From Fimbriimonadaceae bacterium (lineage in GTDB: Bacteria; Armatimonadota; Fimbriimonadia; Fimbriimonadales; Fimbriimonadaceae), in the NCBI GenBank assembly GCA_019454145.1, contig CP075366.1, forward strand, positions 1,839,564-1,903,563: a stretch of 64,000 bases of DNA, in the 5' to 3' direction. Every line of letters begins with the position of its first letter. The first letter of the stretch is position 1. Made by a program: the position numbers and the translations under genes. Below are positions 24,012 through 25,543 of the stretch, piece by piece. Under the pieces are notes generated by a model. That model worked only from the letters and a program-made list of their open reading frames with translations. It was not told where the DNA came from and ran no database searches.

Positions 24012-24064
24012 CTTTCAACGATACCAAAACCTGTTGTTGCCCAAGCAAAAAGCAACTGAGCGAA

Positions 24065-24070
24065 TACAAT
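24065..24070 (+). promoter_or_regulatory. Candidate leaderless -10 element (TACAAT)
   Basis: TACAAT lies 6 bases upstream of the ATG at 24077 of the selenoprotein gene. It supports the upstream ATG and thus reading through the UGA. Confidence 0.5.
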
Positions 24071-24076
24071 AGATTT

Positions 24077-24313
24077 ATGGCAACTATTCAAATTGAATAC
24101 TGCGTCCGTTGAAACTACATGCCACATGCAGCCCGGGTGGCTGATTTGCTAAAGGCTCAATTCAACGTTGATTCCGAATTCGTCAAAGGCGATGGCGGGA
24201 TATTGGAAGTCCGAACCGGCGACCAAATCATTTGGACTAATCGCGAAAATCGTGGCGAAAAACCGACCAACGAAGAGATCGTTTCCGCTTACCAAAAATT
24301 CAGCTCAAAGTAG
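24077..24313 (+). CDS. selW: SelW-type (Rdx family) selenoprotein with in-frame UGA (Sec)
   Basis: Reading from ATG 24077, the frame is open for 11 codons, hits TGA at 24110-24112, and continues to the TAG at 24311-24313, giving 78 residues. The peptide around the stop is IEYCVRUNYMPHAARVADLL, the exact Rdx/SelW active site with Cys9 and Sec12 in a CxxU motif, and the rest follows the family (KGDGGILEVRTGDQIIW near the middle). The shorter frame starting at 24119 would lack the whole active site and begin mid-helix. Rdx proteins are small thioredoxin-fold oxidoreductases. The gene is divergent from the serine hydrolase and upstream of htrA. Requires SelA/B/C/D elsewhere in the genome. Confidence 0.88.
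24110..24143 (+). promoter_or_regulatory. Putative bacterial SECIS hairpin
   Basis: Sixteen bases after the TGA (24110-24112) a hairpin can form: CAGCC (24129-24133), loop CGGGT, GGCTG (24139-24143). The loop contains a GG, and the spacing fits bacterial SECIS elements, which sit within the coding region just after the UGA. The lower stem is imperfect. Confidence 0.55.
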
Positions 24314-24385: not shown

Positions 24386-25543
24386 ATGAAGGCAAAAAAT
24401 GTATTGCTGGTTGGGGTTGGGATTTTTGTAACGGCGTTTGCTGCATCGTTTGCGGCAATGAGCTTGTTCCCTATGTCTCCATTTGCTAAAAAGGAGTCAT
24501 CGCCAATCGTGATGAACTCGGCTCCAACCACGCCGATCGAAGTCCAGGATGCAGCAAAATCACTCCCTGATTTCCGAGCGGCTGCAAAACATATTTTGCC
24601 GAGTATCGTTAGTATCACCACACTCATGGAAGGTGAAAACTGGTTCGGTGAAAAGTACATCGAGCCCTCCGGTTCCGGTTCGGGCGTGATCCTCAGTAAA
24701 GAAGGTCACATCGTCACGAACTACCACGTTGTGACTTCAGGCGGTAGAAGAATCGCCGACCAGATCATCGTGAAATTCAGTAATGGCGACACTGTTCCCG
24801 GAAAGCTGATTGGGGCCGATCCACGCGCAGATCTCGCTGTCCTGAAAGTGGATTATCAAAATTTACAGCCCATCGGAGTTGGAGATTCGGAAGCAATTGA
24901 AGTCGGCGAATGGGTGATCGCCGCAGGTAACCCACTTGGATTTGAACAAACCGTTTCAGTCGGGATAATTTCCAGCAAGGGCCGACCTCTGAAGTCACAG
25001 GATTACGCAATTTTTGTTGACGGTCTGCAAACTGATGCGGCAATCAATAAAGGGAATTCAGGCGGTGCCCTCTGCGATTCGCAGGGCCGATTAGTGGGCA
25101 TCAACACTATGATTGCGTCCACCGACCAGGGTTCCGTTGGTATTGGGTTTGCTATTCCTATCAATCGGGTGAAAGACGTTGTCGCCGAACTTATCAAATA
25201 CGGGCATGCTCGGTACGGGCGAATCGGCATTTCCGTTCGCAATGATTCAAGCATTCTGGGGATAGACGGCATCCGCAAAAAGCTGATGCAAGAAGTCGGC
25301 GCAACGACAGAACCACCTTCTAAGGGTGTGATCGTTACCGAAGTCTACGATGGCCCAGCCTCAAAAGCCGGTCTGCGAACGCTCGACATCATGACCGAAA
25401 TCAATGGCAAAAAGATGAACGCCACCGAAGACTATCAGGTGCTGATGGCAGACAAAAAACCGGGCGACAAACTGAATATCAAAGTTTGGAGCCGAGGGGA
25501 AACGAAATCGCTCACTATCACGCTTGACGATGGTCAAGGTTAA
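24386..25543 (+). CDS. HtrA/Deg-family serine protease
   Basis: Periplasmic heat-shock type protease/chaperone. The 385-residue protein has a signal anchor (about 5-27), a trypsin-like domain with His114 (TNYHVV), Asp149 (RADLAVLK) and Ser225 (GNSGGAL), and one PDZ domain (about 285-375, GVIVTEVYDGPASKAGL). A single PDZ is like DegS or many Gram-positive HtrAs; DegP has two. The leader before its ATG can fold over the ribosome-binding site, which hints at control of translation. Confidence 0.95.
   Translation: MKAKNVLLVGVGIFVTAFAASFAAMSLFPMSPFAKKESSPIVMNSAPTTPIEVQDAAKSLPDFRAAAKHILPSIVSITTLMEGENWFGEKYIEPSGSGSGVILSKEGHIVTNYHVVTSGGRRIADQIIVKFSNGDTVPGKLIGADPRADLAVLKVDYQNLQPIGVGDSEAIEVGEWVIAAGNPLGFEQTVSVGIISSKGRPLKSQDYAIFVDGLQTDAAINKGNSGGALCDSQGRLVGINTMIASTDQGSVGIGFAIPINRVKDVVAELIKYGHARYGRIGISVRNDSSILGIDGIRKKLMQEVGATTEPPSKGVIVTEVYDGPASKAGLRTLDIMTEINGKKMNATEDYQVLMADKKPGDKLNIKVWSRGETKSLTITLDDGQG

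Follow-up and report, generated by a model that had tools for sequence, protein, structure and literature searches.

A SelW-like gene with a predicted selenocysteine codon in a Fimbriimonadaceae bacterium of the phylum Armatimonadota

The DNA analyzed here (the window, 64,000 nucleotides) belongs to the genome of a bacterium of the family Fimbriimonadaceae, phylum Armatimonadota, that is assembled as one contig of 2.76 Mb. It carries a small selW-like gene (Table 1) whose frame opens with an ATG, ends in the TAG at 24311-24313 and has a UGA as its sole interruption, at the redox position of a CxxU motif. Translation across the UGA gives MATIQIEYCVRUNYMPHAARVADLL...SSK. The coordinates of the three codons and the open frame had been proposed in an earlier note and proved exact when sequence and translation were re-read; the same note held that a standard call from 24119 drops the active site, and the standard ORF list does contain only 24119-24313 at this locus, a frame of 64 aa without CxxU. 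Frames of the window with a TGA next to a Cys codon were also listed, and none besides the selW-like gene was gene-like. Only the selW-like gene unites a CxxU with a SECIS-like hairpin and a long open frame.

A few bases 5' of the ATG, within 24063-24076, lies the sequence TACAAT, which is kept in one relative (L022) and is less obvious in some others. No clear Shine-Dalgarno sequence is visible in the same interval, as if the transcript were leaderless, and a consensus sigma-70 promoter was looked for upstream of the gene and not found. On the 3' side selW is directly followed by an HtrA-type protease gene, an arrangement shared by five further genomes from the genus (L022/L034 and L023-L026). 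This adjacency may reflect shared history more than shared function; the protease gene is dispensable for Sec decoding.

Table 1. Features at the selW-like locus (positions in the window)
Feature	Position	Strand	Evidence
selW-like gene, 78-aa Rdx-family protein across the UGA	24077..24313	+	PF10262; TIGR02174; AF2 model compared with SelW-family structures
In-frame UGA, predicted Sec (U12 of CVRU)	24110..24112	+	TGA in 38/39 phylum Rdx genes
Cys9 codon, resolving cysteine of the CxxU pair	24101..24103	+	Column invariant in 38-protein alignment
Predicted bacterial SECIS hairpin, 5-bp stem, CGGGU loop	24129..24143	+	Covariation; bSECIS rules
Trypsin-like/PDZ (HtrA-type) protease gene	24386..25543	+	Pfam; downstream neighbour conserved within the genus

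The read-through protein matches the Pfam Rdx family PF10262 (2.3e-12, 47.4 bits, curated cut-off 22.6) and, above its cut-off, TIGR02174 (CXXU_selWTH). By both profile match and position of the CxxU the protein is a member of the SelW-like/Rdx family. The profile of the Campylobacterota SelW (NF041051, SelTWH_Campy; PMC4607533) is also matched over nearly its full length, yet at 65.5 bits the protein stays under the 88-bit equivalog cut-off and thus outside that type. An AF2 model, computed from 38 family sequences with Cys in place of Sec, has a pLDDT of 91 and a predicted thioredoxin-like fold, in which C9xxU12 is located between a strand (3-9) and a helix (15-29). The top PDB matches to the model are SelW-family proteins (3dex, 2ojl, 2fa8, 2oka, 2obk, and 2p0g), and mouse SelW is matched as well (2npb, TM 0.63 by query length, 15% identity). 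Family profile and predicted fold both bear out the SelW-type identity suggested in the earlier note. Each Fimbriimonadales genome with a match has a single Rdx match, and two forms of SelW can be told apart in an alignment of this order (L022-L062), one short, with the ending TNRxNxGxKPTNEE, the other longer and containing FSKxxxGRHAEPGEV.

In a scan of 291 Armatimonadota genomes, an Rdx gene was found in 39. A conserved UGA or a Cys codon at the redox position, as expected of a bacterial selenoprotein gene, is what these genes have: 38 contain one in-frame TGA and the remaining one, in genome G122, has TGC. The 38 genomes are spread over many families, and the TGA aligns at the CxxU in every phylum Rdx gene whose sequence was read. 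Among 61 near relatives (the genome of the window included), 13 possess the selW-like gene, all 13 with TGA. The earlier note had staked its reading on relatives' homologs having Sec or Cys at this position, and what they carry there is UGA and, once, Cys. SelA was detected above cut-off in 146 of the 291 genomes versus 35 of the 38 carriers of a TGA-containing Rdx gene (Fisher p ~1e-8, in a test that ignores shared ancestry); the three carriers in which SelA was missing are incomplete assemblies (72-88% complete). Searches with the single SelW protein retrieved only one near-identical relative from genome contigs and no match from viral contigs, and Rdx matches in plasmid records were distant and mostly unannotated.

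Downstream of the UGA, the small hairpin that the earlier note had described, 16 bases past the codon and with GG in its loop, is indeed present (CAGCC-CGGGU-GGCUG, GG at loop positions 2-3, 21 nt from UGA to loop). In 32 aligned sequences 98.1% of the stem cells are paired, three of the five stem pairs show compensatory changes on both sides, and the observed covariation score was matched by none of 500 shuffles, with slid controls scoring much lower; RNAalifold recovers the identical helix unprompted. Loop position 2 is always G, followed by G or U, and the last position is U. In the published bSECIS model the loop has 3-9 nt, with G among its first two nucleotides, and lies 16-37 nt past the UGA; the stem has 4-16 bp, and the energy limit is -7.5 kcal/mol (PMC13188914). 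With its 5-nt loop, 5 bp and 21 nt the selW hairpin conforms to the loop, stem and spacing rules; its energy in isolation borders on the limit, at -6.0 to -7.3 kcal/mol (the latter with one flanking base per side), and reaches -8.3 kcal/mol with longer flanks. Taken alone, the short hairpin of the single sequence is weak evidence. The folding energy of the region was no better than that of shuffled sequences (z-scores 0.0 to +1.2), and a similar hairpin follows about 8.5% of the TGA triplets of the window (~1 in 12). Neither the lone hairpin nor its energy exceeds chance; the case for Sec is made by homology and by covariation of the stem.

The same evidence bears on whether the UGA is a true stop, in which case translation would yield at most the product of the downstream ORF (24119-24313), the locus being either a pseudogene or a gene starting past the active site. 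That ORF is what standard calling yields. Against a true stop, the in-frame IEYC segment upstream of the codon is conserved, the TGA recurs in frame in 38 genomes of many families, the SECIS stem covaries and the genome encodes the Sec machinery (see below), while a pseudogene would accumulate frameshifts and further stops; we consider termination at this codon highly improbable. The hairpin is absent from the Cys-coded homolog of G122 (L044), a control that consists of one gene; this links the hairpin to Sec coding rather than to protein sequence by itself. Misreading of TGC as TGA during sequencing would be conceivable for a family in which Cys forms exist, but 37 other genomes from independent assemblies have the in-frame TGA, and the hairpin accompanies the TGA genes and is missing from the single Cys-coded one. 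Such an error is hardly credible.

The genes selA, selB, selC, and selD, which the earlier note had proposed to look for, were all found in the genome: SelA (5e-116), SelB (334.5 bits over the frame, in an open frame of 612 residues), SelD (4.5e-101) and a tRNA-Sec (Rfam 72.3 bits) with a TCA anticodon according to ARAGORN. The selD gene has an in-frame TGA of its own (L019:1531-1533, plus strand, about position 1998921 of contig G000:C1), within LVNCAGUASKLG (CAGU) at the active site, and a strong hairpin lies downstream of this UGA; its loop, GUU, begins with G and starts after 33 nt. From its sequence, selD is a second candidate selenoprotein gene. The genome thus combines a complete Sec pathway with no fewer than two candidate selenoprotein genes, selW and selD. 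The earlier suggestion that the organism decodes UGA as Sec is supported by selA/selB/selC/selD, by the UGA of the relatives and by the conserved hairpin, and very probably holds.

It could also be asked whether the UGA is decoded as another residue, either Trp or, via a tRNASec-like tRNA-Cys, Cys. Genes for such tRNAs are known in bacteria, and one is found in the distant relative G122, but a search with this tRNA gave no match in the genome of the window, where the tRNA-Sec is an ordinary one (anticodon TCA), and the precedent in the family is Sec. Decoding as a residue other than Sec is accordingly very unlikely. G122 is the only genome of the phylum scan with a Cys-codon SelW gene (L044:1480-1740, minus strand). 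Its tRNASec-like tRNA-Cys (anticodon GCA, 92 nt, L044:1780-1871, minus strand, Rfam tRNA-Sec match of 55.9 bits) lies upstream of that gene, ending 39 bases from the SelW ATG, and the genome additionally possesses an ordinary tRNA-Sec and an ordinary tRNA-Cys. No full-length gene similar to this tRNA was found among the other 290 genomes. It resembles the selC* tRNA-Cys, which a 2020 review reports from Firmicutes, Thermodesulfobacteria, Nitrospirae, and Proteobacteria (PMC7609411); Armatimonadota is not among the phyla listed there.

With the family, the predicted fold, the conservation of the UGA, the covarying SECIS and the full Sec machinery established, we conclude that the gene is almost certainly a bacterial SelW-like (Rdx) selenoprotein gene whose UGA is decoded as Sec. 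Insertion of Sec, the redox reaction and a redox partner are what we infer. In the bacterial Sec pathway, SelB with Sec-tRNA(Sec) binds the hairpin and Sec is inserted (PMC1794560). SelA would convert Ser-tRNA(Sec) to Sec-tRNA(Sec) with selenophosphate from SelD, and SelB, as carrier of Sec-tRNA(Sec), would recognize the G-containing loop of the hairpin and deliver its cargo to the ribosome at the UGA in place of termination. The predicted product is a 78-residue protein of thioredoxin-like fold. Its likely redox center is the pair Cys9/Sec12, which precedes the first helix and could, as a thiol/selenol couple, form a selenenyl-sulfide. An interaction with glutathione has been reported for the SelW family (PMC1088965).

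SelW-like selenoproteins of bacteria have been on record since about 2005 (PMC1088965, PMC1794560) and were the most abundant selenoprotein family, with 48 genes, in the Sargasso Sea set (PMC1088965). The Armatimonadota gene adds a further member to this known family. It shares with the others the CxxU, the small Rdx protein, a SECIS right after the UGA and the strong preference for Sec over Cys in Sec-using organisms, and differs in its host phylum and in the shorter form, with the TNRxNxGxKPTNEE C-terminal region, that is found in the genus of the window. Few or no Cys forms of SelW-like proteins were seen in Sec-using bacteria in a 2006 survey (PMC1794560), and the ratio of 38 TGA to one Cys codon in Armatimonadota is consistent with that preference. 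Eukaryotic selenoprotein W (mouse 2npb) has the same fold and CxxU family motif, whereas its SECIS is located in the 3' UTR and the one described here is of the bacterial type, inside the coding region. No paper on selenoproteins of Armatimonadota (or Fimbriimonas) was found in an open-access library that covers part of the literature; three hits for Armatimonadetes deal, to go by their titles, with other organisms or communities.

A wider proposal, that Sec is near-obligate in the SelW-like family throughout Armatimonadota and that the Cys-coded gene of G122 is coupled to its adjacent tRNASec-like tRNA-Cys, seems unlikely to us; if true, the coupling suggests a role for such tRNAs at particular genes that once encoded selenoproteins. 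SelW genes were likewise overlooked by annotation in Epsilonproteobacteria (PMC4607533), and standard gene calling would split or lose the small SelW genes of Armatimonadota. The results confirm a known Sec/SelW system in a poorly studied phylum and indicate that much of Armatimonadota, with SelA in about half of the genomes scanned, is able to decode UGA as Sec.
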